The position numbers and the translations under genes are program-made. From Beroe forskalii (taxonomy: Eukaryota > Ctenophora > Nuda > Beroida > Beroidae), in assembly GCA_011033025.1 (NCBI GenBank), contig WFMF01000353.1, positions 1 through 64,000 of the forward strand: DNA of 64,000 nucleotides, in the 5' to 3' direction. This document shows positions 9,057 to 60,767 of the stretch, piece by piece (position 1 is the stretch's first letter; each line of letters opens with the position of its first letter). The notes below the pieces were generated by a model. It saw nothing but the letters and a program-made list of their open reading frames with translations. It had not been told where the DNA came from and made no database searches.

Positions 9057-12000
9057 ATGGCTTCCTTAGTGGCTGGTAAAAATGCCATTGTGACAGGGGG
9101 TGGAACAGGTAATTCATTCGTGTGAGGATTAAAAGTTTATATCGAAATGTTTCTAGATTTCTATTTTCTTTTTTTGTTATTCGTACTGAGATTGTGAGAA
9201 CATATTCACTGCTCTTATAGAGAACTTGCTGTTGAACTTAAAATCACTTTAATGATAGAATTACTTATCCAATTCGATATAAGATCAAAACTATTCCCTT
9301 GTAATGTTGACTTATAATTGAATTTAACCAATCCAGGCATCGGAAAAGGAATTGCACAGCTGCTGGTACAAAAGGGATGTCGAGTCGCCATAGCTTCTAG
9401 GAAGTTAGAGAACGTGGAACCCGCTGCCAGAGAAATCAACAGTTTGGCTGAGGGAAGCAGAGCCTCATAATTTTCAAGGTGTCATTACAGTGAATGGTTT
9501 ATAAGTTTATAGCCTTTGCCAATTTGAGCTTAAATGCAATGAGTTATCATCGAAAAGTTACCTGTCCGTGTGGTACTGTTTGATTATAATTTCTCATTTG
9601 AAAGTGACACATAGACACGTATCTCACTGCACACAACAGGGAAGTGGGGGCATTGCCATCCCCTACAAGTGCGACATCAGGAAACAGGAGGACATTGACC
9701 ACATGCTCCACTCCCTCACCACGACTTACGGAGCAGTGGACTACCTGGTGAACAACGGGGGAGGCCAGTTCGTTATGCCAGCAGAGATGCTGTCTCCTAA
9801 TGGCTGGGATGCAGGTCAGAGGACTGATTCATGGGATAAAAGTTATCATAAGATGAGCGATTTATCCATCAGTACTTCAGTACGATAAGTGATTCAAGTT
9901 CATTTTGCTTGATCAATGACATATCAAAGTGAATATCGCCTGAGATTTTCAGTGAATTGACCCTCACTTCAACTCTTGCACCCTCTATCATGCCACCCCG
10001 CAGTCGTCAATACGAACCTGCGCGGCACCTTTCTCCTCACGCAGTCAGTGTTCAAGTCGTGTATGAAGGAGAACGGGGGTTCCATAGTTAACATCATTAT
10101 GGCCCTGAGTGGGGGATGGCCTGGCTTCGCTCACAGTGTCTCAGCTAGAGCAGGGGTGGAGGCCCTCTCAAAGACACTCGCTGTGGAGTGGGCTGAGTGT
10201 CTTAAGAACCTTATTCGACACTGACTTTGAGGCCATATTTGCACTGTGATAAAGTAATAAACATCTTATGTGCAGTTAGATTATTATGTTATTTAATGGC
10301 AGTTGAGAAGCATTCGAAATATCAATGAGTCCAAGTGAAACCTTCATGATGTTCAACCGCCTTTTTCCATGAGTGGGGAAGGTATCTTGACGGTGGTAGG
10401 AATACTTGACATTGGTTTTCATTTGCGTGTGTTTGTTCTCAAAAACGATCCCTATCCCTGATTTCTGATGCTTTATTCCCAGCTGAATTCGGTGTAAGTG
10501 TTAACAACGTGATACCTGGAATCATTCACTCTGACACCGCTGTTAAGAACTACGGAATCTTTGGACCCAAAATGTTCAAAGAAGCAATCAAACAGGTCAA
10601 ATGTGTTTGTGTTATCATGCGATTCCAGGTTATATTCCTGGTCACTAAACAATCCCTGCTGGCCAGTGGCCACTCCACGAAAATTTGAGATCTGAGATTT
10701 TAAGAATACAATGCCAAAATTGTGCAGTTTTCCAATTTCGTACTTTTTGATGATTATACTTACATCTCATCGCTTTCTAAAGTCTTTAACCCATTATTGC
10801 CTAGTGGTTGCATATGCAACCACCAAGTTCAATCGCCCATAAAATTTGCAAATTTTGAGATAGGAAAATGGTTCATATTGCGTTTTGTAGGAAATTGTTT
10901 AAATTTTCATTTGAGACAGAAATTTGTAGGCTACAGTTTGATATGAAGCTGGTATAACTTGCCAAAGTTAAGGTTAAAATTTGAAAAATGACCTACTCTA
11001 GGCTCTTCACCTCAAAACTTGAAATTTGCCCCAAATGATTTGGAAATTTTTGTTCCTGATTCAGAATTGGCAGCTCTACAGCATGAAAGTAATTTCAGTT
11101 AAAATGGAGATTAGTGTGAACATGAGAATGTTTGAAACTATGCTGGTTGCATATGCAACCGCTAGGTGGGGCCTAGTGGTTGCATATGAAACCGGTTGCA
11201 TATGCAACCACCAGGCTACAAGATCTGGCCTAGTGGTTGCATATGCAACCACTGAATTGTGAAATTTTCATAAATGGTTGCATATGCGACCACTAGGCCC
11301 ACATTATTTGTTATTTAAGCTACATGCAGTCACCATTTTGATATCAACTAAAAATTTGAGTAGAGTTTTAGTGGTGCATCAAGTTTAAAAACATTATTTT
11401 TGACTTTTTTGAGTAAAATGCCGCTAAATTTTGCATCTGGAACTTTGTCATAATCAAATAATTTCATCTGATAAAAGTCATTTCATTCTAATATACGTTG
11501 GCCATTGCTGCATGAAAACATCAATCTATTGGCCTAACGATTTTATAAGAATAAGCAATGATTTTTGTACCAGACGCTTAGATTATATTTATAGTTTAGA
11601 CTCAAGAAAAGATAGCTTAACAACACAATTCCTCTAATTGTGTTAGTCAAAATGAGCAATTGTAATCAATATGATTTTGGATGAAATTGATGGTTCTCAA
11701 TTCTTAATTTACAATCAGCAAAACAAAAATCCTTGCTGGCCAGTTTATCCTTCCTTTGGCCCTATGCAATATTCATTCAAGGTTCTGTCCATATACCAAA
11801 AATGATTAATAATATGAAGTTATTCAGAGCCATTTGAGGCCCAGTGAATCATTGGTTTGTGGACTTCTTGAAAACCTATATTATGAAGATATAAGTAGGT
11901 ATAATGATCAATTGATCAATGGGTGTAATTGAGTTCCCTTAATCTTTGAAATTGTGAAAGGATATTAGCCAGTACTATTTTTATAGTAGCTTGTGTCTTT

Positions 12001-14108
12001 CATTTCCTTATCCTTATTCATATTCTGAACTGCCTCAAGAGTCTAGAAACCCTCTAAGGAACGAATAAGTTTCTCTGGTTTGATAAGTTCAAGAATTCCG
12101 TTGAGGGCAGCAATTTCACACATCACAAACTAATTTTCATAATTCATATTATAATGTTCAGTTATACTAGTAAAGTAGTAAATTACTGCGGGAGATTGCC
12201 GGTAGTACTCCTCCGGGAGTATAACGGGTGCCCTCCGGGAGTACTCCAGGAGTCCTACGGGATTCTCACGGGAGTCCCACGGTAGTCTTATGGGAGTCCC
12301 CTGGGATTCCTCTGGGAATTCCTAACTGAGTTCTACGGGAGTCCCTCGGGAGTCCCCCGGGAGTCCTGCAATAGTCCCTCGGGAGTTTTCCAGGAGTACA
12401 ACAAGAGTCCTACGGGAGTCCCTCGGGAGTCCCCCGGGAGTCCTGCAATAGTCCCTCGGGAGTTTTCCAGGAGTCCAACGAGAGTCCTACGGGAGTCCTG
12501 CGAGAGTCCTACGGGAGATCCAAAAGAGTCCTATGAGAGTCCCACGGGAGTCCTGCCAGAGTCCCACGAGAGTCCTGCCAGAGTCCCACGGGAGTCCTAA
12601 GGGAGTCCCACGGGAGTGCTCTGGGAGTCCTCCAAATACAGGAGTCCTATAGGAGGCCCACAGGAGTCCCAAGGGAGTCCCCCGGGAGTCCTGCAAGAAT
12701 CCCACGGGAGTCTCGAGGGAGTGCCACGGGAGTCTCGAGGGAGTGCCACGGGAGTCTCGAGGGAGTGCCACGGGAGTCTCGAAGGAGTGCCACGGAGTCT
12801 CGAGGGAGTCCCACAGGAGTCTCGAGGGAGTCCCACGAGAGTCTCGAGGGAGTCCCACGGTAGTCTCGAGGGAGTCCCATGGGAGTCTCGAGGGAGTCCC
12901 ACAGAGTCTCGAAGGAGTCCAACGGCAGTCTCGAGAGAGTCCCACGGGAGTCTCGAGGGAGTCCCACGGAGTCTCCAGGGAGTCCCATGGGAGTCGAGTC
13001 CCCCAGGAGTACTCCGGAGTCCGGGAGTCCCACAAGATTCCAACGGGAATCTTACGGGAGTCCTGCGAGAGTCCCATGGGAGTCCTACAGCTACGGGAGT
13101 CCCCCAGAAGTCCTCCGAGAGTCCCACGGGACTACGGGAGTCTCGAGGGAGCCCCACGGGAGTTCGAGGGAGTCCTGAGGGAGTTCTACGGGAGTCTTAC
13201 CAGTGGACTCCCGAAGGACTCCCGTGGGACTCCCTAAAGACTCCTGTAGGACTCCCAGAGGGCTCCTGGGGGACTCCCGGCAGCCCCCGTAACACTCCCT
13301 TGGGACTCTGGCAGGGCTCCCAGGGGAATCCCGTAGTAATTCTCTTCAATAGTTGACTGACTGATATAAAATCTATGCAAGGTCTTTCAGGAGTTATTGC
13401 AAATTCTACTTTCAATGCATGGAATTGAAGAGGTTTATATTAATACAATCATTGATTGGTGTTTCCAATTTCAAGTTTGTACACTGTACAGTTACCATTT
13501 GTGTTATAACTCAGTCTTCTATTGATAAGCTCATACTTAAATTATGCAAATATTTATATTCCACATTGATTGGTAAAAATATGATAATATTATCATGATA
13601 TGAAATATGGATAAATTTTGCTAAAAAGCTTTCACTTGGTTGCATATGCAACCAGGCCACTGTACAAATACAGGCATAATATATCCAGTTAAGCCTAGTG
13701 GTTGCATACAGCAACCATGCACCATTTGACTGGCAACGATTTCCCCTAGTGGTTGCATATGCAACCAGAGAGGATTTCTGGCCCCATGGGGGTCCGAAAC
13801 CTCAAATTTTGATTGTAGAAGTTATGCGACCTCATCTAGACACAAAATCCAAAATTTCATCAAAATCGGACCAGGTTCTGACCTACCGGGCATTAAGGGG
13901 TTAAATAAATTCCGTTCTGAAACAGGTGCCACAAGGGCGACTGGGTACTCCAGAAGATATAGCGGTGTCAACCCACTTCCTGCTCACTGCCCCGTACATC
14001 ACGGGACATAGTCTGGTGGTTGACGGTGGGTCCTCTTTAGGAACTCTAAACTGGTGGAACACTGTACATGGCATGATGACTGGGAAGATAAATCCAGAGG
14101 ATCCATGA
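9057..14108 (+). CDS. PECR: PECR-like peroxisomal trans-2-enoyl-CoA reductase, right copy
   Basis: Six exons: 9057-9108, 9337-9452, 9640-9814, 10004-10192, 10483-10595 and 13926-14108, about 275 residues, in frame throughout. Domain content is as in the left copy: TGGGTGIG cofactor loop, NNGGG, the variant catalytic region HSVSARAG, VIPG, GRLGTPEDIA and DGGSS. Introns 1, 3 and 5 are GT-AG. Intron 2 keeps frame only as GAG|GGAAGC to AG|GGAAGT. Intron 4 has no in-frame GT donor. The right-arm acceptor of intron 2 ends CAACAG where the left ends CCTGAG, but the junction is the same. Intron 5 has swollen to 3.3 kb through a TTAA-flanked insertion rich in minisatellites. Both copies look codable, so the genome may carry two functional PECR genes, or these are two alleles. 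Confidence 0.88.
10799..11302. repeat. cluster of 16-bp palindrome GGTTGCATATGCAACC, left part
   Basis: Copies at about 10806, 11145, 11192, 11234 and 11275, with a degenerate one at about 11176. Most sit inside a longer symmetrical frame CCTAGTGG...CCACTAGG. Each copy can form a perfect hairpin or bind a dimeric protein. The same word recurs near the other end of the element. Confidence 0.9.
12180..13345. repeat. GGGAGTCC minisatellite with inverted end
   Basis: Degenerate tandem repeats of GGGAGTCC-type units, locally higher-order as CACGGGAGTCTCGAGGGAGTC. From about 13200 to 13340 the orientation flips to GGACTCCC, so the array is itself partly palindromic. Several long open frames cross it on both strands, but they are low-complexity by-products of a repeat lacking stop codons. 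Confidence 0.9.
13635..13770. repeat. palindrome GGTTGCATATGCAACC, right part
   Basis: Three more copies at about 13638, 13699 (changed in the centre) and 13750, close to the right terminus of the TTAA-flanked element. The word thus marks subterminal DNA on both sides. Confidence 0.85.
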
Positions 14109-17900: not shown

Positions 17901-20900
17901 CGAGGTAGGGTAACATCCACACAATTGTCTTAGTCTTTAATAACTATTATTCGTGAGATTTCCACGCCACCGTGCTGCGCGCTGAATCTTTCCTAAGCCC
18001 GCATAGGTGTGTGTACGGGCGCCCGCGCAAGGCAAGCTGAATCTCAACAGCTTGCGTCAATTATACTTATAAATGATTTAGTTACGATCAACAAGGCACT
18101 GATTTAAAATTGAAATCGGCACTGGATATAATCAGCACTGGATAGAACTAGAGAGGTCACGTGATATGTCTCGAGGTATATCACGTGATGCCACAGGTTA
18201 TGTCATGTGATGTCATAATTAGCACGTGACTGGCTAATGCAGCGCTACTACCTAACACCATGGTCTATCAATATATGGCTATGGTCATGGGGGCTAATGA
18301 GGGGCTAGTAAGGGGGCTAGTAGGGGCTAGTGAGGGCTAGTGAGGGGCTAGTAAAGGCTAGTGAGGGGCTAGTAAGGGGGCTAGTGAGGGGCTAGTGAGG
18401 CTAGTAAGGGGCTAGTGAGGGCTGGCTAGTAAAGGGGGCTAGTAGGGGCCAGTGAGGCTAGTGAGGGGCTAGTGAGGGGCTAGTGAGGGGCTAGTAAGGG
18501 GCTAGTGAGGGGCTAGTGAGGGGGCTAGTAAGGGGGCTAGTGAGGGGGCTAGTAAGGGGGCTAGTGAGGGGCTAGTGAGGGGCTGTGTGGGCAAGTAAGG
18601 GGTTGGTGAGGGGCTGAGTAAGGGGCTAGTGAGGGGGCTAGTAAGGGGCTAGTGAGGGCTAGTAAGGGGCTAGTGAGGGGCTAGTAAGGGGCTAGTGAGG
18701 GGCTAGTAAGGGGGCTAGTGAGGGGCTGGCGTGGGGGCTAGTGAGGGGGCTAGTGAGGGGGCTAGTAAGGGGCTAGTGAGGGGCTAGTGTAAGGGGGCTA
18801 GTAAGGGGCTAGTGAGGGGCTAGTAAGGGGCTAGTAAGGGGCTAGTGAGGGGCTAGTGAGGGGCTAGTGAGGGGGCTAGTGAGGGGGCTAGTGAGGGGCT
18901 AGTAAGGGGCTAGTGAGGGGCTAGTGAGGGGCTAGTGAGGGGCTAGTGGGGGGCTAGTAAAGGGCTAGTGAGGGGCTAGTGACGGGCTGGACAGGGGGCT
19001 GGCCAGGGGGCTGGTGAGGGGCTAGTAAGGGGCTAGTGAGGGGGCTAGTAAGGGGCTAGTGAGGGGGCTAGTAAGGGGCTAGTAGTAAGGGGCTAGTAAG
19101 GGTGCTAGTAAAGGGCTAGTAAGGGGGCTAGTGAGGGGCTAGTGAGGGGCTAGTAAGGGGCTGGCAGAGGGGCTAGTAAGGGGCTAGTAAGGGGGGCTAG
19201 TGAGGGCTAGTGAGGGGCTAGTGAGGGGCTAGTGAGGGGCTAGTAAGGGGCTAGTGAGGGGGCTAGTGAGGGGCTAGTTAGGGGCTAGTGAGGGGCTGTG
19301 AGGGGCTAGTGAGGGGCTAGTAAGGGGCTAGTGAGGGGCTAGTGAGGGGCTAGTAAGGGGGCTAGTGAGGGGGCTAGTAAGGGGGCTAGTGAGGGGCTAG
19401 TAAGGGGCTGTTAGTGCTAGTGATTAAGAATTGACAATAAGGGAAATTGTTTCGAAGGAGTAAGTGAGGGCTAGTGAAGAAAAGCATTCAAATTGTTTAA
19501 TGGATGTCATAATTTTGACATTTTGACCACAAAATGTACTCTCGTGGGGCTAACTCATTCAGTCAAATTTTGACATTAGCCCCCATTGTACCCTCATATG
19601 AAGGCTTTAGCCCCTCATATGGTGCTATAGCCCCTCACGAAATGCGTGGGGCTAAATTCGTTAAAACGTCTTGTGAGGGGCTATGAGGGCTGGCTAAGGG
19701 GGCTAAATTGCAGATTTAGCGCCCATGGGGAACGTGAGGGGCTAGTGAAGGGGCTAGTGAGGGGCTAGTGAGGGGCTAAGTGAACTTTTAGCCCCTCACC
19801 GTGAAGGGCTACATAATGCAAATAGCCCCCACCGTATATTAGCGCCCATGGGGGCTAGACACCAAGATTAGCCCCTCACTAGCCTCACATGGCCCCATGG
19901 GGCTAATGGGGGTTATTTTACGCTGAAATCAGTCATGTTCCTCAACTACCATTTCGCCTGGATTGGTTGATGTTTGATAATTATAACTACGTTATTTTCA
20001 TGAGGAACTGATTAGGAATTTACTATCGAAGCCTTTCCAAATTCCCATACCAAATTATGTTGCAAGTGAGTTAAATTCTGATCGTTGAATTATTTTCCAG
20101 GCATTTTGTAACCGAACAGTAGTTTGTTGAAGACTGAATGCTGATGGGTATTCTCATGACAATTTTGGTACAACTGGAACATTTAATTCAAATGTTGAAT
20201 GATTCATAGAATTTTGCGTAAGGCGCATGGCATATCATCTATACAGTTCTCTATTGTCTTTGAAGTGAAGAGCCGCGCATTGCGCGCGCGCGCGGCGGCG
20301 CGCGCGTGGGAAACTTTTTGGGTTTGCGTGGGATCGGAATCTTTTCGCTTACCATTTAAAGGGACATTTCAGGTGGTTACCGCAAATCTCTCGGTCTTCG
20401 GAAAGCTGGAGTCCGGGTTGCACTGCACGACCCAGAAGCACCTAACGCTCTAGTACTGTACACGCCCGCAGAGGATTCAAAAGACGAAGTTCATGTGGTT
20501 GTAGACCCTGTTTTAGGAGACATTCTTAGACCGCATCAAAGAGAGGTTTACGAAACACGCGTTTTATGATCAGCGAATAAGAAAATGATAAAATACTTTG
20601 TTAACGCCAAAATTAGGGGATATGATGTCCATTAATAACTAAATTACGTACAATTCTCAGTCTTATCTACTATAGCCGATAAGTATTAAAATAAGCAGCT
20701 TGACTTTATCAATTTTATCGGCTAACCTCTCCAAGTCATGAGAATGATGCTATCCTAAGCACCAATGACTACGAGCTTTAAATGCCCCATTTTTCATCTC
20801 TCTACCCCTTTAGGGAGTGAGGTTCATGTACAGATGTGTGACGGGTCTCACTGCGCCCAGTAACTACGGCTGCATCATGGCAGATGAGATGGGTCTCGGT

Positions 20901-23900
20901 AAAACCCTGCAGTGTGTTACGCTATCCTGGACTCTGATGAAACAAGGTCCCACTTGTGAGGCAACGGTTTCTAAAGTTGTGATTGTCTGCCCTTCTTCCC
21001 TTGTTAAGGTGATCACATGTTACATTGTAAGGTGCTATCAAGCGTCCGTGATACTTGTTTTGTTGCTTTCAACTGTTAAAATCCGGTGATATGGACCTTG
21101 AGTCAAATTTCAAGTCAGCATAACGATACTTATTTGGTTAAGCATTGTAATGCTTCATATTGCTGCTAATTATTAACCATTCCTTTCTCAGAACTGGCAA
21201 AACGAGTATTTGAAGTGGTTGAAAGGACGTGTTACTCCGCTAGCGATTGACAGTGGTTCCAAGCAGAAGATTGACAACGATCTAGAGAGTTTCGTCACTG
21301 CTCGTAGAGTTGTGTATCCCGTACTGATTCTATCCTACGAGACTCTCAGACTTCACATCGATGCTTTGCTGAAAGGTAACAATTCCTGTCCTACGCAAGA
21401 CCACTAGATATTTACACCATGATAGGACTTGAGGACTTCTCATATTTTAACTGTTGGAGGCCTGGAGGGTGTTCTCGTGATAAGAATTTATTAATAATCG
21501 GTTTTTTTCCCAGGTCCTATTGGACTCATCATCTGCGACGAGGGACACAGACTCAAGAATTGTGACTCTCAGACGTATGTCGCTTTGAATCGTTTGGATT
21601 GTAAACGAAGAGTTTTGCTGTCAGGAACGCCCATTCAGAATGACCTACTCGAATATTTTAGGTGCGGTGTTTTGATTTATGCCAAAACTGTAGTTGAGAA
21701 GATGATTTAGTACATATTTGAACAGTTATCTCTATAAGATTAAAAATAGTTTCATAGGTGATTATAGGACAAAGGAATTTGTGCCGGAGTTTTGAGTTAA
21801 CTGATGCTGGGAATATTTTCAAAACTTAGACTCATTTTTTATAAGAAACAAAACCTAGGATAAGATTCTAAGACTAGGATTTTGAAAACAATTAAGATAC
21901 CAAGTTTCTTATTAGAGTTTGTGATTAATATGCTTTAATATGTTTGGTCCATAACGCTTACCTTACAGCCTGGTACACTTCGTGAACGAGGGAATGTTGG
22001 GTTCCATCGCAGAATTCCGGAGAAAGTTCGAGAACCCCATCCTGAAGTCACGAGACTCCTTTGCTTCGGATAAGGTGAAGGAGCGGGGAGAGGAAATGCT
22101 GAGGGAGTTGCTGGGTTTAGTGAACCGGTGAGTGCTCAAGATGTCTTAGACGTGAACTACAGCTTCGTCACACACAGGAATCATTATGAGGTTTCAAGCC
22201 GTTTGAGGCCTCAGCCCTTAACTGACTAAACTATTAATCGCGTTTAAATTTTTCGTCTTTCCTGTTAGGTGCATCATCCGACGTACAGCTGCCATCCTCT
22301 CCAAGTACCTGCCTATTAAGATAGAACAGGTGGTTTGTTGCCGTCTGTCCCCCGTCCAGACAGCGCTGTACCAGTCCTTCGTGAACTCCAAAGCCACCCG
22401 GGCTGCCCTGTCAGACGAGAAGAAAGCGGCTGTCGGGGCCCTCTCGTCCATCACAAACCTCAAGAAACTCTGCAATTGTGAGTATTACTATTCTCAATGC
22501 TGAGTGTAAAATCTATCAATTATATTCGATTAGAAAGTGATGAGGCTAACCCTTGCTTACATGGTGAGTTGATGTTGCCATTCTGCCTGATGTTCACGCA
22601 TTGCATACCTGAAAATCAGCCCCACAGACCCAGCGCTGATAAAAGAGAAGGTAGAAGAGAGAGCTCCTGGCTGGGAAGACTGTCTGGAACACATCCAATC
22701 CTTCTCTTCCAAACAAATAACACCTACTCTATCAGGTTCAGTTATTTTATTGATATACGCCTATACACCGGAGGAGTTGCTGAATTTGCTGCCTTTATAT
22801 TTCACAAAAATTGAAATTACCTGCCGTTATCAAGTCAGCTCTTCTGATTCTGTGGATGAGTGCTTTGAAAAAGGTGAATGTTGGCTAATAAGCTCGATCA
22901 AAGTTTTATAGCCCTCTTGTTTCTTTCCTTGACATTCAAAGTATGAGTAGCGGTGGATCAATAATCAGTATCCCTCGCTAACACCATGTTTTCATCAGGG
23001 AAGCTGGCCGTTCTCGATTGTATCCTTGCATCTACAAAAGCTCGAACAGATGACAAGTTCGTCCTTGTCTCCAACTATACTCAGACTTTGGATATCTTTG
23101 AGCAACTTGCCCGACTTCGAGGGTATGCTATTTTCCCTCCCCAAAAGAATCAAATCATTTGGTTTTAATTCACTGAAATGGATGCAAATAGTACAATTAT
23201 AAATTCTTGCTTCGAATTATAATTCCCTTGAACGTAATATTCAAATCAAATTTGCAATATTTTTTTTTCTCGTATTTCCTGGATCACACTTCTCGGGCTA
23301 TTGTCTCAGTTACCAATTTGTTCGGCTGGACGGATCTATGACAGCTAAAAAACGGATGAAGATAGTCGACTCCTTCAACCACCCTGAAAGCAAGGATTTC
23401 CTTTTCATGCTCAGCAGCAAAGCTGGAGGATGTGGTCTTAACTTGATTGGGGCTAACAGGTAAGCTCGTTAATTGAAGGTTAATTAAATAGGCCAAAGAA
23501 TTCATTGAATCGTCGCATAATGTACCGCAATCTTAGTAAGATTGAAGTTTTACTGAGACTGCTGATGTCCAGTAACTCCACGAATATGTTTTGTCTCCCT
23601 ACAGACTGGTTATGTTCGACCCTGATTGGAACCCTGCCAACGATGAACAGGCCATGGCCCGTGTTTGGAGGGACGGCCAGAAGAAACCGGTTTTCATCTA
23701 CCGACTACTCACAACGGGAACCATAGAGGAGAAGATATTCCAAAGGCAAACCCATAAGAAGGTGCTTATTTTCATTTTTCAATGTCATTAAATTTTTTTA
23801 GAATCAACTAATCAAGTAAAACCATGTTATCTAAATATTCACACTGTACTAGTATTACAAACTGCACGAATTAAACTGTTGACAATGGGTGTAGAGGGCT

Positions 23901-26782: not shown

Positions 26783-26850
26783 ATGCTTCTTCCAGCGCTC
26801 ACATGAGAAGGTTTGAATGCTTCTCGCAGCGCTTCCAGGAGAAAATGTGA
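26757..26850 (+). repeat. triplicated end of the RAD54 last exon
   Basis: The segment coding FQRSHEKV plus the stop (around CAGCGCTCCCATGAGAAGG) is followed by two more degenerate copies, the first about 34 bp on. Only the first copy is translated, because its stop codon precedes the others. Confidence 0.85.
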
Positions 26851-27580: not shown

Positions 27581-27607
27581 TTGATTTGAGCTAGCGAAGG
27601 CAGGACC

Positions 27608-46700: not shown

Positions 46701-49144
46701 ACTCATAGAAGTTGAGAGATCTGAATAAAGTTTCAATAGCCTAGCCACATATTTCTATCTCAAAAAATCATCTAACTCACCATTTGTTTGAAAGGAAACT
46801 GCTGTCTAGTTATGAATATAACAAGTGTATGGCTATCAATTAAGGTTAAAAAACTTTAGATCAGTACCTTCCTAGATTGTGTTTCAGGCTTCCAAAAATT
46901 ACATTGACCAATTTACTATTCTATGTTTGTTTTTGTTCTTTGAAAGTTGATGAGTGAAGGGAGCTGTGCGCTGTGTAATGTGTGTATCTGCTATGTACAT
47001 GATAATAACCTAGTCTGTACACGTTGATTGCGTTAATTAGATCTCTAGGCAGAGTCAGTCCAAAGTACTTCCTGCAATCTCCGATTTTAGTTTGTTTTCG
47101 AGCTTTTCCTATTTCTTCGTGAAATAGGGGAAAATCAACTCAGTTTTTCACCGGAAACCGCGGATTTTCATCCGTTTTGCTTTCTCGGTTTTTCGCACAC
47201 GGAATTCCGAGCAAAAACCGGGCATGGAACACTACACTTAGGTGAATGTAGTAAATTCCGTCCATGAACTAGGATGAAATACTAAATAAGCATGCTAAAA
47301 GCTTAACAATTTCACCAGATTTCACCTATTTCCCACTACAATAGTACAATAAGCTGTTTCACCTGTATATAACACTGCGCGACAGCATGTTATGTTGGTG
47401 CTGGAGGACGTCATCGCGTTAAATTTTAAACCGCAATAACTCATGAAGTAATAAAGATAGAGCGATGGGGATTTCAACATTCTATTACATGTATGTGAGA
47501 TATGATAAAATCATAATGATTTCAATTTCATATGAAGTCAATTCTATACCAGAGAACCCCTTTAATAACATGTTGGCTTAATTTTCTTATCCATTATAGG
47601 TTTCGAGAAATTCTGGGATTTTACACGGCATCAAATTCAGATATTTTTCATCTTCAGTACTGCAATGTAAAATAATGATGAAAGTACTGAATCGCAATAA
47701 TAATTTTTAAATATTAATAAAAATTAGTAATGGAAATTGGAATAATTCAATCACCCTCGACTTCAGCTTCAATCTATACTACTCGTCTTAAGCTTTCACA
47801 AGGATTGGATCTGCATCCTGCAAGTCATGACGACTGTTTCTTATTTAGCTGATTGAATACTCACCACTCAATTTTAAATATTATTCAAAGTTAGTCATAG
47901 TTAGATCATGCCACTTCAATTTTCAACAAAAATTTGAAACTTTCAGGCCAACTTTTTCCATTTTCGTCCACGATTTGAATATTTCCAATCTTTTTCGTTA
48001 ATGAATGATTAATTTCTATATTATCGCAATTACTAAGCATCAAAAGTCATAATTTCCTGAGAAATGTTATTATTAGTGCGTTTAACTTTGAAAAAGATGA
48101 AATAAGAATTTTTGATGCCCTCTAAATTCACGAAAATAAGAATTATACAATACACGACGAGGTTCTCAGCATGACTTTAATGTCCATGATAATTATGTCC
48201 GATAAAGCTGTACATCATACGGCACACAATCGTCTCCTCAGGCCTCCCGTGCAAAGGGCAGGAAGCCTCGTAGGAACAGGCAAAGACACAAACACTGGAG
48301 GAAACGAATACTCGTCCATCGAATGGATCAGAAGTGGGCTAAACGTACCAGTAGATACTTCGATGATAGACCCTGGGGTGGTCAATGTTTTGTTTCTTAG
48401 CTATTGTTCTGGAGTTCATTAGCTTGAATGGTGCATGGAACCTCTGTTTTATGAACCATTAAACCTTGTCGATTTCATATCTTATTACTATTAATGACGT
48501 ATGTTACGTATAATTATAAAACAAACTACCGCTCGTTTCAGGGTGGTCAGGAGAGTTTCTCTCCCGAGTTGTTCGAGCGTTTCAGGTATCAGTTTGGGGA
48601 CAGAAAGCCTGAGTACTTCATTCGAAGACTACGAAACAAGGATCCTAAAGTCATGAAATTCATCAATACTAGGAAATACGAGCCGAGGGAGTGAGTTTCA
48701 ACTTTCCTAATTTCTTCTTTTATAAGTAAATTCATATTATATTGTTTCAAATACCCCCTACAAATATCACTCTTATCGAACTCCTAGATTTTAGTGTAAC
48801 CCCTATAAAATATGTTTGGCATATAAATCTTTGGCATGATATCCCGTTTTCTTTCCATTTGCTTTGTTGGATGATGGTACCTCTCAAAGCCACTCAGTTA
48901 AATAATTATTCTAATTAATTCTCGACCATTTTAAATTTCAATTAAAATTTAAGCTCTAATTAATTCGAGATTAAATACTCCGATTAGAACATTAACCGTT
49001 TACCTTGCTGCTACCTGCCCCAGAGAGAAGTTGTACCAGTGCTCCTACGAGCATATGACCTATCAGAAGACTGATGTGATGTGGGAAAAGAGACAGCGGT
49101 GGCGAAAGTGGAAAGTCATTAAGGAACTCACTAACAAACGCTAG
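31754..49144 (+). CDS. MRPL2: mitochondrial large-subunit ribosomal protein uL2m, with 13.3-kb intron
   Basis: Ten exons give about 398 residues: 31754-31838, 32120-32272, 33182-33303, 33608-33705, 34015-34127, 34604-34732, 34884-34975, 48242-48376, 48542-48690 and 49024-49144. Exon 1 encodes an arginine- and serine-rich, acid-free start, as expected for a mitochondrial presequence. Exons 3-7 match uL2: GRHPETGKKLFMCRGGG, YRVIQIQECEVRNVDLALIAG, NVGDVVEAS, HLMPVG, and LATIGKVKQTTR at the end. Exon 8 continues SWK|ASRAKGRKP, resembling the KAGRxRxLGKRP of the family, then a long basic tail that I cannot match. Introns 1 and 8 are GG-AG with direct repeats. Exons 8-10 could be a separate gene, but phases fit and no start codon is evident. 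Confidence 0.75.
32421..32870 (+). repeat. TGACACCAGTTCACCC minisatellite in MRPL2 intron 2
   Basis: About 450 bp of 16-bp units (TGACACCAGTTCACCC with variants), one copy inverted near 32690. A much more decayed relative lies at 44760-46600. Confidence 0.9.
35405..36229 (-). CDS. secreted cysteine-containing protein of unknown family, nested in MRPL2 intron 7
   Basis: A 274-residue intronless frame, antisense to MRPL2. Residues 1-18 form a signal peptide (MISKLVLAMMIVGAAAAA). Then comes a lysine-rich block with six to seven cysteines (about residues 20-70, pattern CKKTK...CLEKG...PGC...RCKK...RCGGYNC). After that is a roughly 180-residue region with aromatic and beta-type alternation (EFTVRMNPLPG, EFYLRLRVETLDGDG) that could be a jelly-roll-like fold. 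The C-terminal 40 residues are charged. N-glycosylation motifs NCS and NWT are present. I do not recognise the family and assign no function. The full-length frame, signal peptide and paired cysteines argue for a real gene. Confidence 0.75.
   Translation of the reverse strand: MISKLVLAMMIVGAAAAAGCKKTKNRLGKCLEKGFEIPGCEAGDGTLPAEEEKRCKKMLRRAERCGGYNCSKSGDNWTEVVWPGIDNPNIVGEGGTYWSVKTDTFPVNVGAYENLEFTVRMNPLPGKVSDVEFYLRLRVETLDGDGNLLARATYQNELSSKGVSYCIAFLRTVQGPYCSVHTHTKDLHEDVTSLTDLTDYTVKADVWGNFNVWGQGLMSEYNFNENPEVSCYFDAIKEAKQARMEFLTAEDYLYKDQYLPDYIKMEWKAEFMKD
37462..38820 (+). repeat. 1.36-kb tandem unit, copy 1
   Basis: Starts TTTTTATCTACAAACTACAG and ends CCCTGATGTATTTTT. Purine/A-rich plus strand, with CATGCTCATAT repeats near the start and an ACACAC tract. 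No coding potential seen. Nearly identical to the copies starting at 42270 and 43617. Confidence 0.92.
38905..39137. repeat. 233-bp inverted-terminus element with TCGCGA palindromes
   Basis: Bounded by perfect 12-bp inverted repeats, TAACACCCGGGT and its complement. Inside, TTCTCGCGAG-type palindromes recur about six times. It lies just upstream of the retroelement body and could be part of its leader or LTR, or a small MITE. Confidence 0.6.
39245..42268 (+). mobile_element. Ty3/gypsy-like LTR retrotransposon, 3'-truncated
   Basis: Gag and the start of Pol are present. The element stops abruptly inside the reverse transcriptase domain, where copy 2 of the 1.36-kb unit begins. No RNase H, integrase or 3' LTR is present. 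A candidate primer-binding site, TGGCGCGAACTGTCGCCC, lies at 39245-39262. It sits between tandem units 1 and 2, so it was probably inserted into the array and then lost its 3' half. Confidence 0.85.
39496..40692 (+). CDS. gag: retrotransposon Gag polyprotein
   Basis: 398 residues. Glutamine-rich start, a helical capsid-like region (about residues 20-200, with a GVRNDELAIKLL segment typical of retrotransposon Gag), a Q/N/P-rich linker, then two CCHC zinc knuckles near residues 330-375 (CYFCSRPGHTRPNC and CTFCNKKGHNASTC). The intact frame suggests fairly recent activity of the family. Confidence 0.92.
   Translation: MAADQQQQQLQLQRHVTARSPSEFSLKDKFATWSKQFRNYCELLNIPNANRYRTLLSFLDAECFTIIENLNLTANQRANIFEAEPFRLIKNALSSREENVPPGYALKYRKQKEGESIEKYAAELERLALEAFPNEQNIRANRTLIESFIAGVRNDELAIKLLQENFDNLGPAINRAVEYFQALQTRRFIKTESDFRPSLEKVYAIKETENISNETVDAVNCDETRLSGQSNTQTMTDNKQQANAQPSFNAPYPPYNHVHSLQNQIPWQAMNPYTQQYQNTYPQWQPNYMQQNQPLFSNQYTPHPFRSQNTRGNGYGPRPQSNNNRPTVVCYFCSRPGHTRPNCRLFQQSKAQNQQTQPLYCTFCNKKGHNASTCWHLNNTSSGQNAPDQNSKNPFRPT
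40707..42320 (+). CDS. pol: retrotransposon Pol (protease and reverse transcriptase), truncated
   Basis: Starts 14 bp after the Gag stop in another frame. An aspartic protease motif, DSGSPVSIID, lies near residues 37-46. Reverse transcriptase blocks follow, with the catalytic YMDD near residue 487. The last 17-18 residues come from the adjoining tandem repeat, not from Pol, so the thumb, RNase H and integrase are missing. Non-functional as it stands. Confidence 0.92.
   Translation: MVSKGVNVTKQTPRRNISNKSYVNIAIFDTFYYALVDSGSPVSIIDESAVPKQLLSKLTNCPLKLTGANGKKLETLGSLTVTMGFSENSPKLELQAIVARNLCETILIGSDFLNDHSCILNYSNLTFTVDDLTVPLLKTSQAKTPRSFKVKVAKTIKIPPKTAANNVQCSTLTKGSSKRCYISTSGILNPADKLLSKKFNFSLPNILLNVTKGSGYISITNPHEHPITIYRNQIIGIFREVQGESVNFLNQGYTSQHQDSCSVNTMENEADDHDTTELLFKKLKIDENQNISDHQKSILKQLISKYRHIFYTEGDALPAANLPEHEIVLDTNKPIQVPYRQIPIALKPHAERLINDLMNKDIIEPSNSPYHSPAFVIKRGDKYRIVVDYRQVNKHVIRNYQPLPSIETITTVWHDCNFWSTLDLHHAYFQVKLSEKSRKITACSIPGVAFFQFKRIPLGVSSAVGYFQGLIERTLMGLKNNLKLVAYMDDIATGSHTFEEMISNLEQIFKRLSDVGLLLKHKLQYRIAEVCSPSLYS
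42270..44580 (+). repeat. 1.36-kb tandem unit, copies 2 and 3
   Basis: Copy 2 (about 42270-43616) lacks the first dozen bases because of the retroelement junction. Copy 3 starts at about 43617, exactly 1360 bp on, and is cut at about 44580. Copies differ by a few single-base indels in homopolymers. A 5' fragment of the same family lies on the minus strand at 60845-60975. Confidence 0.92.
44760..46600 (+). repeat. decayed GACACCAGT-type repeat field
   Basis: Recurrent but irregular words TTCACTCTGACACCAGT, GTCCGGATTCCAACA and CATTGACGTTACGTATCA. Probably an old minisatellite related to 32421-32870. Interrupted by the inverted-repeat element that begins at 45957. Confidence 0.6.
45957..47242. 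mobile_element. 1.29-kb inverted-repeat DNA element
   Basis: Left terminus CCTTAGTGTAGTGTTCCACG and right terminus, read inward, CCTAAGTGTAGTGTTCCATG, followed by a similar stretch rich in AAAACCG and GGAATTCCG. No transposase frame. A MITE-like, non-autonomous element. The target duplication is not clear. Confidence 0.75.
47562..48241. other. end of MRPL2 intron 7
   Basis: AT-rich intron sequence without recognisable exons or repeats, ending at the acceptor CTCCTCAG before 48242. Confidence 0.5.
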
Positions 49145-49741: not shown

Positions 49742-51356
49742 TTATCTGCTTAGTCTATTGGCTTCAGGGCAGAAGTTCTTGTGTTTGCAGCAGTTGCAGT
49801 CGCTACACAGGACCAAGCCTGCTGAAGCATTGCACTGTTTGCACGGGACATAATGCTCTATCCATTGGTAACCAAATTTGAGACGAGTTGCTGCATAGAA
49901 ACATGAGCTTCCCTTCTGCACGATCACGCACATCTTAGCTTCAACCTCCTTCTTACACACTTTCAGGGCTCTTTCTCGTGTCGACCAGCACCCACTTAGG
50001 AAGGTCTTTTTCTTGCAGAGCGTGCTGTTTGATGAACTATTACTGCATTTGCTTGGGATCTCGACATGATTTGTGCTTGCCGTTGCTTCATCAGTGCCCA
50101 GGTAGCACTTTCTACTGATCTTTGCTACGGTGCACTGATCCGTGTTGTTTTTGCACTGATCTCTTGCCTCGCTTTCCTTCACCAAACATGTGCTAAGATA
50201 CTGCTTGCTCCAACAAGCTTCATCGTATCGGAAACTATCATCCACCACATCATTTTGGTCGTGTTCATCATAAGTACTGTCAGCATCATTGGGGTTGGGA
50301 GCCACACAACCACCATTCCTGCACTCCACTCTTGGGACGAGGGGAGTGGTAGAAATAGAGCACATGTTGTCCTTCTCCCTATCCATTAGCATGTATCCCT
50401 TCTCACCCCAGGATTGTCCCCAACTGTTCCTCAGTTTCCAGTACCTCCTTCCGGAAGTGCTGTGCACCCCATACCCCACTAAAGTAACTGCATGGTTGCC
50501 ACCCCGCTGACATGTACTGTCAACATAGACCCCCTCGCTGTAGCCCTGGAAGTATCTATTGACGTACACTGCTACTGACACGATGTGTCTTGAAGCTCCA
50601 ACCAGCAGCCTTGCATCTCCCCTGTAGTAACCGTGCGAAGCAACCCTCACATTGTTATCTGCCAGGGCGTTAGGGGTGCTGGAGTCGACATAGCATTTCC
50701 GTCTGTCTGTAGTGGCGTAAGGGTAGGCGCTGGCTGGAGCTATCCTGTCATTCTTTCTGGAGTAGATGAAGCAGACGTTCGGCGTCGCTCCCTCGCAGGC
50801 ATCCCCCCTTGTAGCACACTCCATGAACTCCCGCTCTGCGAGATTCACTTGCTTGTTGCCCGTTTTGAAGTAGATTTCACCTTCCAGCGCTCCTGCAGCT
50901 GAGAAGGTCCAACAGGACCCGCAAGTTCCTTGATCTTTGACATCAGGTAAGATCTGACTGAAGTCTCTACTCATTGGGATCTTAGACTCTATGTTAGAGG
51001 TGCCGATAAGCATGGTGTCATCAGTGTTATCAATATCAGAATCTTCTGCTTCGTGTCCGGTGATGTTCAAACCAAGACGGAGCATCCGTTCCTCCTCAGT
51101 AAGAACGGACATGAAGTTGTCTGCATGTATGCTGTGTGTGTGTGTGGCAGTGAGTTTATCATTTATTGTTCACTTCTTCCACCATGGCATGGAATTTGAG
51201 GAAAGATCTGAACCTTTTCTCCATCATAGTGGGGGATTCGGACTTCAGGATGCCGTCTGCCTTAGCATACTTTGCCATAGCTTGCCGAAACAAGTCCCGG
51301 ACATCTTCTGACCTGGTCAGGGCAAGGATCGTAGCCACTAGAATTAGTAACTTCAT
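49742..51356 (-). CDS. secreted papain-family (C1A) cysteine peptidase with cysteine-rich C-terminal extension
   Basis: Signal peptide MKLLILVATILALTRS starts at 51356; an upstream in-frame ATG (51401) is less likely because it precedes the hydrophobic stretch. The propeptide follows, then an intron of about 50-80 bp near 51110-51180, then one long exon (51112 down to 49742, 456 residues counted from its first Met). The catalytic set in that numbering is Gln61, Cys67 (in CGSCW), His207 (GGNHAVTLVGYG) and Asn229 (RNSWGQSWGEKGY), so it should be active. About 190 residues follow, with many cysteines and NxS/T sites, ending in a CxxCxC-type cluster. That tail is unusual for cathepsins. The propeptide intron has no in-frame GT-AG solution. 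Confidence 0.88.
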
Positions 51357-55317: not shown

Positions 55318-58300
55318 CTAGGTTGGGGGATTAAACTTGTTGGCCACTATATCAGCCAGTATTTCCTTATCATCTGCTTCAGTAGGACCACAAATAGCAT
55401 TCCAGGGCACCGATACGTCTATCTTAGCCGGATATTTCAGTCCTGTACGTTAAGTTCACTAAGTCGGTGGTTCAGCCGCAGAATATTGTGCAACTTAACT
55501 AAGTCAGTATTTCAATTTTTTCCTGTTCCCAATCGCGTTTTTGTTTTACAAAAAGGCATTGAGAATAGGTTAGCAGAGATCGTGTACTTTGGGGGTTGTG
55601 TGTATACTACCTTTACGCGTACTGTTAAATCTGAAATAGGTGCTGCGCGCGACCGTGTGTCGTCGTGGTGGTGGTGGTGGTTGGTACATTTCCATGCATC
55701 TAACTGCTCCTTTATAATATCACTCGCGTCAGAGTAGCTTGGTTTAGTGGCATCCTTTACATTGTGGGCTTCAGCTAGCTAACAGCGTTGTAGGTATTTG
55801 AGTTCAATGCTCTGTTCATGCTGATGTTGAAATTAATTCTTTTTCAAAAATTCTACAATTCTTTAATCATTAAATCGAAACAATATCGATTTTCACGGAA
55901 TCAATCAAATATTTGATTGATTCCGTGAATCACACAGTCATTTGGCCTTCTTTAAGTAGCGGGCAGTTCGGACAAATTACAATGGGCAGTGTTATAAAAT
56001 CAGTTATGAATGATCTAAAGAATTGACGAGAGGAAAGAAAGACATGAGAGTTTGTCTCGGTTCATCGATTGATAATATATCTGAATCTTTTATCTTAATC
56101 TTGGTCAGTAATCATATTTTGTATCTCAATCTTGAAAATCAATCAATTGGGGTGAAATAATAGCGAACATTGCAACGGTTTGATATCTGCAACGCAGCAA
56201 TAAGAAAACGTAACGCGTAACGAAAATGGTGATCATAGTTGTGAAACTCTGAACGGCGCGCAACCAAACGAAAAGAGTTCTACGAGATGGCGGGAACGCG
56301 CGCGCGAACATTGGGCACGTGGAACGAAATCGCCCACGTGATATTTTTATCAGCGCGCGTTAATTTAAACTTGTACGTAGGAGAGGGAAATGTAAAGCGT
56401 CCGCATAATGAGGAAAATTGATTCAATGATGTTAGTATTGCGATGTGACACTAATTGATAGAAGAAGCGCGATTGTATCATGATTTGGAAGGTCACTTCA
56501 TGCTTTATCGTCAACTCATCATGTCAGTAAATAAGACGGACAACGGTCGCCGATCAAATGACGGCGTGTTTTAATACCAGCCCCAGGGAACAGGAAATTA
56601 AGCGCCTACATACGGGAACAACGGGTACAAGAAATGTGCCGGTAGGCGCAATTCTTGTTAACCCTGTACATTGTTGATTGTATAAGCTCACTAAGTTTTC
56701 GTGTGCTTTTCACATTTTTACCTAGTCCGTTATAGGAAACGCTTTTCAGATTTAATAACCCATGATGGGAATTTCCCTAACACTTCCGCACCTTAACTTT
56801 AGTGCAAAACGATGGTAAAATTGAAGAACGAATTCTAGTGTTTACATTATAGTCACCTTCATTATGGACCATGCGACTTATCATTGACTCATCAAAGGAA
56901 AAAGGGAATTAATGAATACAATAATCTTACCTAGATTTTCCATGATCTGAATAAATTCCTCCTCGGACTTCGTAAGTCGAAGGTTGTAAAGTTTCTCTTC
57001 TCGGATGGACGACTGCGTTCTTCCTTGATAAAAGGGAATCAAGAATATGTTTTTGGACAGTAAGCGATTTTAAATTTTCCAGATAAATAGAATTATGACT
57101 GCTTTACTTAAATGATAAAATACTATCCAAAATTAAATCATTAAAAATGGTCCTCAGAAATTGTGAGAACATTCACATTAAATCTTCTAAAACTAATTCT
57201 GTCTTTTTCCATCTCAATAATCTAGCTAAGTAAGTATCTAGTTACTTAGGAAGTATTGAACTATAGTTACCTTGATAATCATGAGCAGGATAAACACTAA
57301 ACTCCTCTGGAAGAGACAATATCCTGTCATGTACAGACTTAAAGAGGAGGGAGGAGCAGCCTTGTTGGAAATCAGTCCTACCACACCCCCGAATCAGGAG
57401 CGCATCCCCGGTGGAGAGTTATATCAGTCCTACCACACCCTCGAATCAGAAGCGCATCCCCTGTGGAGAGTTATATTAGTCCTACCACACCCCCGAATCA
57501 GGGGCACATCCCCTGTGGAGAGTTACATCAGTCCTACCACACCCCCGAATCAGGAGCTCATCCCTTGTGGAGAGGTACATCAGTACAACCACACCCCGAA
57601 TCAGGAGCGCACCCCCTGTGGAGAGTTACATCAGTCCTACCACACCCCCGAATCAGGAGCTCATCCCTTGTGGAGAGTTACATCAGTCCTACCACACCCC
57701 CGAATCAGGAGCGCATCCCCTGTGGAGAGTTACATCAGTTCTACCACACCCCCGAATCAGGAGCGCATCCCCTGTGGAGAGTTACATCAGTCCTACCACA
57801 CCCCCGAATCAGAAGCACATCTCCTGTGGAGAGGTACATCAGTCCTACCACACCCCCGAATCAGGAGCGCAACCCCTGTTAGAGACCGAGAGTCATATCA
57901 GTTTCAGGAAAAGCAGAGGAAGTTTACAAAAAATGTTGTATTCAGTTTCAAACCATTTTGAACAATATCAAACTACAATCCGTTTATGGGCATTATATGA
58001 TCTAATTCTCATTATGCTGAAGTTCATTGGTTCTCATTACCGGTGAAGCAGAGTTTGTGGTCGTGTAAGACGTAGGTCATACAGCCATCGGTGTGTCCGG
58101 GCGTGCTCCTTGCCTCTAACTTGAGGTTGCCTGCAGGAGAGTAATGTACTAGGAGAGTAGTGAGGTTGTTTCAAATTGCTGTGACGTCACTATCAGCATA
58201 GCCTTATTCCGAAAGTTATTAGCATTACATGTTACTATGTTGTACTACTTGTACTGTATGCGGGAAATATGGAAGAAACTGTATTCAATGAGGAAATGGT

Positions 58301-60767
58301 TAGAATGCCCGGTACATTTAGTTGCAGCGCGTGGCAACCTCACTGTGTAATATATGGTCACAACTTCGCTACACATAGTTACAGAACACCTTCCCAATAT
58401 TAACGACATCGTTATCGTTAAGTAACAAGTCGGCTTTAGCCCCTGATGCAGCTGATATCATGCTCTTACAGCTTGTAGCGCTCTTCAACGCTCCGGTTCC
58501 TGGGATCAAATAGTACATTATTATCATCAATTATTAGCTAAGTAGTGTCCGCTATATTGAGACTGTCTAAAACATAAAAGTGGGTGCTATTAACTTATTA
58601 ATACCTTACATTGAATCCATTATATATCAAACCCACTGTTACATGTACTGCTATAAAACAGAGAAAGCCACGCATAATGAGACACGCCCCAGGAATGTTA
58701 CAACATAAATTAGCATCACTACTTTAATAGCTAGGGTAAAGTGGGGTGAAGTGGGACAATTTGAGACATATTGAGGTGCCACAGTCACACTTTTAACGAA
58801 AAATTAATTTTTGGTTGATGATTTTAGCAATGAACCCTTCCTCTTTCCATAGAATTGGCCGAAAAAATCTCAACCAATGGTTTTCATATAGAAAAAAAGC
58901 TGTCCATCTTTCCCCGCAGCATGTCCCACTTCACCCCTCATGTGGAGGTAAAGAGGACAGTCTCTGTAGCACTGAGATAACCATTTGAGAAGTTTTTCTT
59001 CATTGGACATGTACAGTTCTTTAGAATAAGTCGAATAAACCACTTTGGAACAGAGAAAGATTGAGTCTAATTGGGCAAATTGGAGAATTGAATGAATTGG
59101 TCCACTTTACCCCAAAAATTATTCTTTTAGATTTAAACTTTCAAATTTCATAAAGAGGTTCATATATGGCCAAACATGGAAAATAAGTACCTCTTTGGCA
59201 AGAATTTTGGTTTTGGTCATTTCACAGCCTTTTTAAAAATGTCCCACTTTACCCGCGCTCACCTAAAAACTTTGTAAATTTGTTGTATGGGAACCATTTA
59301 TCGATTTTCTCCATTCCAACGGTTCAGTTGCCATCTGAGTGAAGCCCAAAATGACGAAATTTAATGAGAAAATGTAGTTACCTATAATTAACACGTTGTG
59401 GGGGAAAGAGGGACACTGATAGTTAACAGGGATAATTATCACAATCTAAGCAATAAAAGCATTTGCAACTCATAATTTGTTTACTAAAACATCCCTTATA
59501 AGTTTCTCAGGCATGAAATTTTATTTTCATTAAAAATCATGTTAATGGGGAAAGTGGGACAGTCAAGTCAGATCAAATGAAATCATGTATTCCTAAGGAA
59601 ACAGTTATGCTATGCAGGTTGTTTTTCATCAAGATTTTTCACTTTGGTTGTAGTATACTTTATTTTTTCTTGAAAATAGCACTAAATGATATGGTATAAT
59701 AAATTTGGGGGAAAGTGGGACAGTTGCGCAAAATTGTCAAAATTCAATAAAAATCAATAATTTTAATTCGTGATGCTGTATTAAAAGTTTTAATAGGCAT
59801 TATTGATATTCTCACATACATAAGTCACAAAAACAGGGCGATTTTCGATTAGTTCCATACTTTTTATCAATTGTCCCACATTACCCCATTATCCAATAAT
59901 CAAGATTAAATTCCTGTTCCACTTTCCCCACTCACCTGTAAAGTCTTGTTGGCAATAGCATTCCATCTAAATTTTAACAAATAAATGTCTAGATCATCAT
60001 AAAAATCAGTTGTTATTGCTGTACCACTTTACCCCACAATGGGTAAAATATACAAAATATGACTGTCCCACTTTACCCAGTGGCTTTTATTGCATGAAAT
60101 ACTGTTGGGGTGTTGCTTTGGAAAATTTTCGAAAATTTGTCTCACTTTACCCCATATCGGTCTTATGCATCATTTTGACAGTGTTCCTCTTTACCCAAAG
60201 TGTAGTCTTCACCATAGCTTTGCATAGATGAAGGTTTTTTGAAATTTCGTTAAGTGTCCCACTTTCCCCCCAGGTGTTCCATTTCACCCCAATTTGTCCC
60301 TCTTTACCTCCTGTCCCACTCCACCCCGTTTTACCCTACACAGTGTACCTATAATTGGTGAGCAACGTCCTTCGAACAAAATAAAACGATGGTATAGCTC
60401 CTTACAGTGCTCTTACAAGCTTGTGATAACGAGAGTGACGTGACATCTGAGTTAAATAAATGAGATGTCGCCACCTATGAGATCGGAGTATGAAATTTCC
60501 CCAAAACTGCCATTTGTACGTGCGCGATACTAATTTAACAGTTTATTCACGTACGTATATGGCGCCGCGCAATCGGAAATTTCAGAATGATTCTCATTTC
60601 TCGAAATGGCGACACTTCCATTATCCCACCTGTCACATGGTCGGCATGCATGTGGGTGTTCAGAGCGTACTGTAACTTCAGGTCAAGTTCTGAGAGTATT
60701 CCCACATCCCTGCTCACTTTCTCATAGACCGGGTCAACGATAGCAGCCAGCCGAGTCACCGCACAAC
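55318..60767 (-). CDS. ETHE1: ETHE1-like persulfide dioxygenase, first exon(s) not found
   Basis: Mitochondrial non-heme iron enzyme of the metallo-beta-lactamase fold that oxidises glutathione persulfide in sulfide catabolism. Exons in order: 60630-60767, 58395-58499, 58041-58130, 57271-57408, 56931-57023 and 55318-55442, about 220 residues. Metal motif THMHADH in the first exon shown, PGHTDG in the third, [16 protein letters not shown] and YPAHDYQG in the fourth, then [18 protein letters not shown] at the end. The N-terminal 30-50 residues with the presequence should be encoded upstream; I could not find them between 60768 and 63309. The second intron shown is GG-AG (ATTG|GGAAGG). The acceptor before 57408 reads CCG, not CAG. 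A 10-copy array of that exon's start lies beside it. Confidence 0.87.
55443..56930. other. ETHE1 intron, nothing recognised
   Basis: Intron between the fifth and sixth ETHE1 exons. It contains a short perfect inverted pair (GATTCCGTGAATC and its partner near 55895-55930) and a GTGGTGGTGG run at about 55670, but no gene. Confidence 0.5.
57371..57885 (-). repeat. 52-bp tandem array built from the start of an ETHE1 exon
   Basis: Ten copies at 52-bp spacing (one step is 51). On the minus strand each copy reads TCTCCACAG|GGGATGCGCTC and on through GGACTGAT, that is, a splice acceptor plus the codons for [12 protein letters not shown]. Only the lowest-coordinate copy runs on into the rest of the exon, and that copy has CCG where the others have CAG. 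On the plus strand the array gives proline-rich frames that are not genes. Confidence 0.95.
58732..60338. mobile_element. 1.6-kb inverted-terminus element rich in GTCCCACTTTACCCC
   Basis: Left end TAGGGTAAAGTGGGGTGAAGT and right end, read inward, TAGGGTAAAACGGGGTGGAGT, form imperfect inverted termini. The inside is studded with the word GTCCCACTT(T/C)ACCCC in one orientation on the right half and the opposite on the left. It lies in an ETHE1 intron. No transposase seen; non-autonomous. Confidence 0.7.

Follow-up and report, generated by a model that had tools for sequence, protein, structure and literature searches.

Candidate GG-AG introns between direct repeats in conserved genes of Beroe forskalii

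Results

We have analysed a stretch of 64,000 nucleotides (nt) of contig WFMF01000353.1 from the Beroe forskalii assembly (hereafter, the window), which carries an inverted pair of PECR (SDR) genes, a RAD54-like gene, EXOSC2 (RRP4), MRPL2 and ETHE1. An earlier note on this DNA had listed five introns that would work only with a GG donor, and the sequences themselves are as it described, since all six stretches (five introns, that of PECR twice) start with GG and end with AG. As to the reading of these stretches, the GG-AG intron of EXOSC2 is firm and that of PECR is favoured, and a third, at 48377, is plausible, but MRPL2 intron 1 and the ETHE1 intron have mild solutions with GC or GT donors.

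Four genes of the window were rebuilt with a purpose-written spliced aligner, using homologues from PDB as references (RAD54, RRP4, ETHE1 and PECR) and a penalty of 6 points on non-GT donors. In-frame GT-AG or GC-AG alternatives were sought among donors no more than 45 nt away and acceptors between 60 nt upstream and 45 nt downstream. Score-based spliced alignment alone was dropped as a donor caller, because stretches of low similarity give noisy free donors; with free donors, 9 of the 56 introns that passed the flank filter were non-GT, and on inspection these were mostly alignment artefacts. At the sites in question, the aligner chose the GG donor in EXOSC2, two short introns in place of PECR intron 2, and an AA donor in ETHE1.

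The counts given below refer to a curated set of 54 introns from 10 genes, hand-picked from the spliced alignments, with 20 introns in the window and 34 outside it. We left out PECR 10193/10199 (CT-AG, or GT with two more residues), the second HSPA9 intron (the same choice), ETHE1 58131-58394, ETHE1 57740 (tandem repeats), ATP5F1A 10524 (GC, with a tandem duplication across the donor), MRPL2 intron 1, the intron at 48377, the left PECR copy, poorly aligned ends, and the models of PGK, L039 and L045. The last RAD54 intron and EXOSC2 28924-29451, whose acceptor lies within tandem repeats, were kept though weaker.

Introns with GG donors

Intron 1 of EXOSC2 (27693..28278, plus strand) reads GG-AG and has an 11-nt direct repeat, CAG|GGGATGTT, over both junctions. 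Under this reading the exon end ...GACACCAG is joined to GGGATGTTATC, and the join VTP|GDVITQ matches VVPGDTIT of human RRP4. The spliced alignment to human RRP4 scored 405 with free donors and 395 with canonical donors only, and the canonical-only alignment forced an 11-nt microexon. When the joined exons were compared with the genome by BLAST, the left match extended 8 nt into the intron and the right match 3 nt. Judged from these sequences, the GG-AG reading of this intron is firm.

Intron 2 of PECR was read in two copies, the right one (9453..9639, plus strand) with a 7-nt repeat, AG|GGAAG, and the left inverted one (5431..5620, minus strand) with a 10-nt repeat, CTGAG|GGAAG. The two copies of the intron are about 81% identical, and the donor GGAAGCAGA and the core of the repeat are kept in both. 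The exons would then end in ...GGCTGAG, joined to GGAAGTGGGG. In this case the GG call is based on frame, homologue length and the presence of two copies rather than on the aligner score; in the right copy the score-based aligner preferred two short introns separated by an exon of 7 residues. A weak GC donor offers an alternative with two residues lost, in a loop that is variable among homologues. We hold the GG-AG reading of PECR intron 2 as the favoured one. The difference in repeat length (10 and 7 nt), the roughly 19% divergence of the introns and the shared donor suggest a decaying duplication and not a sequencing error. The inverted pair (4300-10600 of the window) also flanks another gene at 7500-8230, which looks ATP12-like by eye.

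These duplicated and partly damaged genes raise the question of whether the introns lie in broken or misassembled copies. PECR is indeed an inverted pair, and the HSPA9 copy described below (locus L043) is frameshifted and broken downstream. However, the EXOSC2 and PECR alignments are free of frameshifts, and the GG donor occurs in two diverged copies of PECR, so that we give this explanation hardly any credence.

The other three sites are weaker. The intron at 48377..48541 (plus strand) is a candidate GG-AG intron in a gene without an assigned family, with a 9-nt repeat, G|GGTGGTCA. It keeps the frame, and a GT donor is also in frame with five more residues, or with one or two more when the acceptor is shifted. 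It had been labelled MRPL2 intron 8, a label that has no support, because the flanking exons showed no Pfam family match and their best PDB match had an E value of 0.81. We consider the GG-AG reading of this intron plausible on its sequence. In MRPL2 intron 1 (31839..32119, plus strand; GG-AG or GC-AG), a GC donor is in frame with one residue lost at a variable N-terminus, and the 5-nt junction repeat is within chance. For the ETHE1 intron (58131..58394, minus strand), where GT donors had been said to give early stops or frameshifts, two of them keep the frame: TCT|GTAACT at 58382, 12 nt downstream, with an unchanged acceptor and four more residues, and AAG|GTGTTC, which pairs with an acceptor lying 11 nt beyond and leaves two residues fewer. 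GG-AG is not established here; the junction repeat measures 2 nt.

Taken over all sites, these alternatives make up a rival explanation, namely that splicing is canonical from nearby GT or GC donors at the price of a few residues gained or lost. Options of this kind are in frame at every site, and they are mild in ETHE1, MRPL2 intron 1, the 48377 intron and PECR. In EXOSC2 three such donors, two GT and one GC, are in frame (six pairings), but even the mildest pairing drops four conserved residues that are aligned in human RRP4. Canonical splicing also leaves the repeats of 11, 10 and 9 nt unexplained, and we regard it as unlikely for the introns as a group.

In the curated set, 51 donors are GT, two are GG and one is probably GA. 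The two GG donors fall among the 20 introns of the window, and the 34 introns outside it comprise the probable GA donor and no GG. When the five doubtful introns (PECR 10193, the second of HSPA9, ETHE1, MRPL2 intron 1 and 48377) are counted as non-GT, the figure becomes 8 of 59. The estimate of one GG intron in nine is thus too high for the curated introns.

The probable GA donor belongs to intron 1 of HSPA9 (8155-8254 of locus L043, 100 nt), where it is the choice of the aligner and gives gapless spacing against E. coli DnaK. With human HSPA9 as the reference, the aligner moved the donor 3 nt upstream to AA, with a one-residue gap. A GT donor with two residues fewer is also in frame, and the copy has one frameshift in the alignment and a broken frame downstream. 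Because the human reference moves the donor and an in-frame GT exists, the GA donor is probable and not firm. This intron has a 10-bp perfect inverted repeat near both of its ends (0.02 expected among the 54 introns). Comparing the first with the last 30 nt of all 54 introns, inverted repeats of at least 6 bp occurred in 13 introns, with 7.7 expected, which we did not use as an argument.

In all three curated non-GT introns an exonic AG precedes the donor; this is not so at MRPL2 intron 1, 48377 and ETHE1. An A stands at intron position 3 in PECR and HSPA9 and not in EXOSC2. Separately, in ATP5F1A (locus L032, about 490-743) an exon end is tandemly duplicated together with its donor, which gives a possible GC-donor intron of 502 nt.

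Direct repeats at the junctions

The level of chance for junction repeats was obtained by re-pairing the donors and acceptors of the 54 introns (2862 pairs) and by 20000 permutations. Repeats of at least 8 nt were found in 5 of the 54 introns, against 0.40 expected, and repeats of at least 7 nt (7-14 nt) in 6, against 1.11 expected, a number reached in 8 of the 20000 permutations. Among the re-paired junctions, none had a repeat as long as that of EXOSC2 (11 nt), three equalled or exceeded the left PECR copy (10 nt) and seven the 48377 intron (9 nt). For the right PECR copy (7 nt) and MRPL2 intron 1 (5 nt), the corresponding numbers were 59 and 557, and the 2 nt of ETHE1 are ordinary.

Introns with GT donors also show such repeats, namely HSPA5 (CCAG|GTGTTCGAAG, 14 nt), GLDC (CAG|GTTGGCCT, 11 nt), the ETHE1 intron 57024..57270 (9 nt) and the last intron of PECR (10596..13925, plus strand, GT-AG), with the 8-nt repeat AAACAG|GT. 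Both curated GG introns have a repeat of at least 7 nt, as against 4 of the 51 GT introns (Fisher about 0.011 by hand arithmetic, the GG introns having been preselected by the earlier note). In the better-supported GG introns, the donor repeats the opening bases of the exon that follows, and this differs from the view that these are normal donors in which the second base has changed to G.

Where a repeat spans the junctions, several registers give an identical mRNA, so neither proteins nor spliced reads settle the register, and within such repeats the mRNA cannot reveal the dinucleotides used. For the same reason, the statement that these introns only work with a GG donor is too strong. It may be asked whether the introns are instead used in another register of the same repeat, with a GT donor and an unusual acceptor. 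GT registers do exist within the repeats, as GT-AT in EXOSC2, GT-TG or GT-GG at 48377 and GT-GG in MRPL2 intron 1, and TG acceptors have been reported in human genes, as far as the accessible part of that source goes (PMC2374985). On the other hand, T-rich tails lead to the AG acceptors of EXOSC2, MRPL2 intron 1 and 48377, and just upstream of each unusual acceptor there is an AG. In PECR intron 2 the GT register is absent from both copies, which makes it the cleanest GG case as to register. We consider the use of another register very unlikely.

Spliceosomal RNAs and host lineage

A further rival explanation is that old GT donors have decayed to GG under a relaxed recognition of the 5' splice site, the repeats being coincidental. 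The donors GGAAGC and GGAAGG are one base off common donors, and GG and GA donors are common in the copepod Eurytemora. However, the junction repeats of EXOSC2, the left PECR copy and 48377 are longer than re-pairing readily produces, and the change in the small nuclear RNAs (snRNAs) U1 or U6 that the earlier note had suspected was not seen. Ten copies of U1 lie above the Rfam cut-off. Eight of them have the canonical 5' end, ATACTTACCTG, and two (L004 and L012) have ATACTAACCTG, a variant which alters the base opposite intron position 3 and not that opposite position 2. Of eight U6 matches, the best five (109.6-116.4 bits) and L054 (65.6 bits) retain ACAGAGA; L055 (53.4 bits) and L056 (35.5 bits, below the cut-off) are weak, diverged and without this motif. 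Because U1 and U6 are canonical in most copies, no snRNA change was found as a cause of the GG donors, and we regard donor decay as decidedly unlikely. The U1 of Eurytemora likewise shows no explanatory change (Robertson 2017, PMC5714493).

The GG donors had also been taken as a possible mark of a copepod lineage. The assembly comprises 216,145,372 bases in 1134 contigs, among them a mitochondrial, COX1-bearing contig of 13,339 bp (C1134, L059). Its COX1 has four internal TGA codons read as Trp, and its AGR codons (in DRN, PRINN, DTRFYF and GLPRHY) stand at sites that are usually Arg. Because of these two features, the mitochondrial code is code 4 and not a bilaterian one. The first 10,000 bases of this contig, with a G+C content of 17.4%, showed no tRNA; the published mitochondrial genomes of B. 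forskalii measure 13,357, 13,339 and 13,338 bp, with a G+C content of 17.3%. Two open reading frames (ORFs) of the contig, 4311-4691 and 7546-8649, have a stretch of about 50 residues in common near their starts.

Spliced leaders were searched for in the same assembly. Neither the calanoid leader CopepodSL (28-nt core, at most two mismatches) nor the siphonostomatoid leader-like sequence had a match in the genome, these patterns having been taken from PMC4664967 as far as its accessible part gives them. A 28-nt piece of the leader of the ctenophore Hormiphora californensis, from the accessible part of PMC8527503, had 34 matches with three mismatches each, and the reversed pattern had none. With the absence of copepod leaders, the ctenophore leader and the ctenophore-like mitochondrial features, the genome is that of a ctenophore, very probably Beroe forskalii, and the copepod lineage falls away. 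At six leader loci (L060-L065), a non-GT sequence directly follows the leader in five, as though DNA copies of trans-spliced mRNAs had returned to the genome.

Other features

The RAD54-like gene (20546..24221, plus strand) served as a comparison in the window; its 10 introns are all GT-AG, the last resting on 5 aligned residues. In ETHE1, a GT-AG intron (57024..57270, minus strand) has a 9-nt direct repeat ending ATCAAG|G, with the acceptor inside the repeat.

At 39487-42317 of the window, two overlapping long ORFs resemble, by eye, the gag and pol portions of a retroelement of the Gypsy type, and repeated blocks lie nearby. Long single ORFs at 49745-51169 (minus strand, papain-like by eye) and 35408-36256 (minus strand) adjoin intron-rich genes. 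Elsewhere in the genome, matches to glucose-6-phosphate isomerase lie in long ORFs, several per contig (C424:118521-121371 and C633:39009-41001), and a match to methylmalonyl-CoA mutase lies in a 763-residue ORF (C288:37856-38545). These may be retrocopies, intronless genes or contamination.

Discussion

We consider it fairly probable that the GG-AG introns described here are of recent origin, created by insertions that duplicated their target, and are spliced despite the mismatch at position 2. A piece of DNA would insert at an AG|G within an exon and duplicate this target. The 3' splice site would come from the inserted piece, and of the two exon copies the upstream one would become the 5' end of the intron. 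An AG|GT target would then give an ordinary GT intron, as may be the case in HSPA5, GLDC and the last intron of PECR, and an AG|GG target would give a GG intron. Although its U1 and U6 are ordinary, the spliceosome of the ctenophore would tolerate a mismatched +2 as long as AG|G and other pairing remain. The junction repeats, whose excess over re-pairing we observed, may accordingly be the footprint of intron birth.

Several observations weigh against this proposal. Good support is limited to two GG introns, and the donor of the HSPA9 intron is unsettled, with a junction repeat of at most 2 nt. A scan of 263,498 bases for neointrons, by direct repeat and coding potential, gave no excess over controls (648 for AG; 689, 422, 361 and 556 for the control tails GA, CA, TG and AC) and was swamped by tandem repeats. 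The splicing of these introns is read from genomic sequence alone. Finally, no family of mobile introns was found, since seven of the eight introns searched (PECR intron 2, MRPL2 intron 1, 48377, ETHE1 57270, HSPA5, GLDC and HSPA9) had no match elsewhere in the genome beyond the PECR duplicate, the 48377 intron matching only itself. The eighth, EXOSC2 intron 1, contains a dispersed element of about 80 bp (27713-27793 of the window) with 12 other places among the matches listed; its start lies some 20 nt inward of the donor. The element has the core TGACGTCATTATCAT, with copies in L009, L011 and L040; the ends of the copy in L040, GAGAAATAGGC and GCCTATTTCTC, are complementary, which suggests a miniature inverted-repeat transposable element.

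Thus a footprint of insertion is present with no mobile intron family, because the introns are unique and the EXOSC2 element is internal. Intron-free copies of the five joined genes were not listed within the genome either. The filling of a staggered break with unique DNA, which has been proposed for Daphnia, would fit as well as a transposon. The combination looked for in Daphnia neointrons, a short direct repeat with unique filler, is what we found here, the filler of EXOSC2 intron 1 being partly repetitive.

Each of the ingredients, namely GG or GA donors, junction repeats and odd donors tied to new introns, is known in other animals. In Eurytemora affinis, 36 of 297 donors are non-GT (5 GG and 31 GA), and an exonic AG before the donor is the rule (Robertson 2017, PMC5714493). 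The part of the earlier note that likened the donors to those of Eurytemora holds to this extent, with some GG-AG introns and a probable GA intron here as well. Both genomes have non-GT donors starting with G in ordinary conserved genes, an exonic AG (here in the curated cases), a canonical U1 5' end and many recently gained introns (here probably so). In contrast, the present phylum is Ctenophora, the frequency is 3 of 54 (two GG, one probable GA) as against 36 of 297, and the GG donors lie within direct repeats, a feature on which the main text of PMC5714493 is silent.

The remaining comparisons draw on the accessible portions of their sources. In Daphnia pulex, one exon end and the opposite end of the new intron have direct repeats of 4-12 bp in common, and 118 of 120 derived introns are GT-AG, with one GG..AG (PMC4202315). 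Short junction repeats and a GG..AG case are common to both species; unlike in Daphnia, where presence and absence alleles were compared, we have the footprint alone. For introners, intron-making transposons with copepods among the hosts, the target-site duplication made on insertion can become the 5' splice site (Gozashti et al. 2022, PMC9860276). The 7-14-nt repeats that six of our 54 introns carry resemble such duplications, a status that we infer; unlike introners, which form families of similar introns, none of the eight introns matched elsewhere over its full length, the PECR duplicate aside. In the tunicate Oikopleura dioica, new introns are often GA-AG with exonic AG flanks (PMC7072748, PMC4202315). 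The link of odd donors with newly gained introns and the AG flanks are alike, whereas the donor is GG here and GA there.

Considering these systems together, we put forward, tentatively and as a possibility short of a probable one, that ongoing, target-duplicating intron gain in ctenophores repeatedly yields introns with duplicated exon sequence, AG|GG or AG|GA, as their 5' splice site, which an otherwise ordinary spliceosome removes. Such tolerance would have arisen separately in ctenophores, in copepods and in appendicularians, and its common cause would be the gain of introns rather than a changed U1. As far as the open-licence literature shows, which is weak evidence, the occurrence in ctenophores is new.

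If the proposal is right, tolerance of non-GT donors would extend to a third distant animal lineage. Donors would be recruited from the duplicated target, so that the proportions of GG, GA and GT among young introns would follow those of the AG|GN target sites. GG introns of Beroe may then be overlooked in gene models and in the mapping of RNA.

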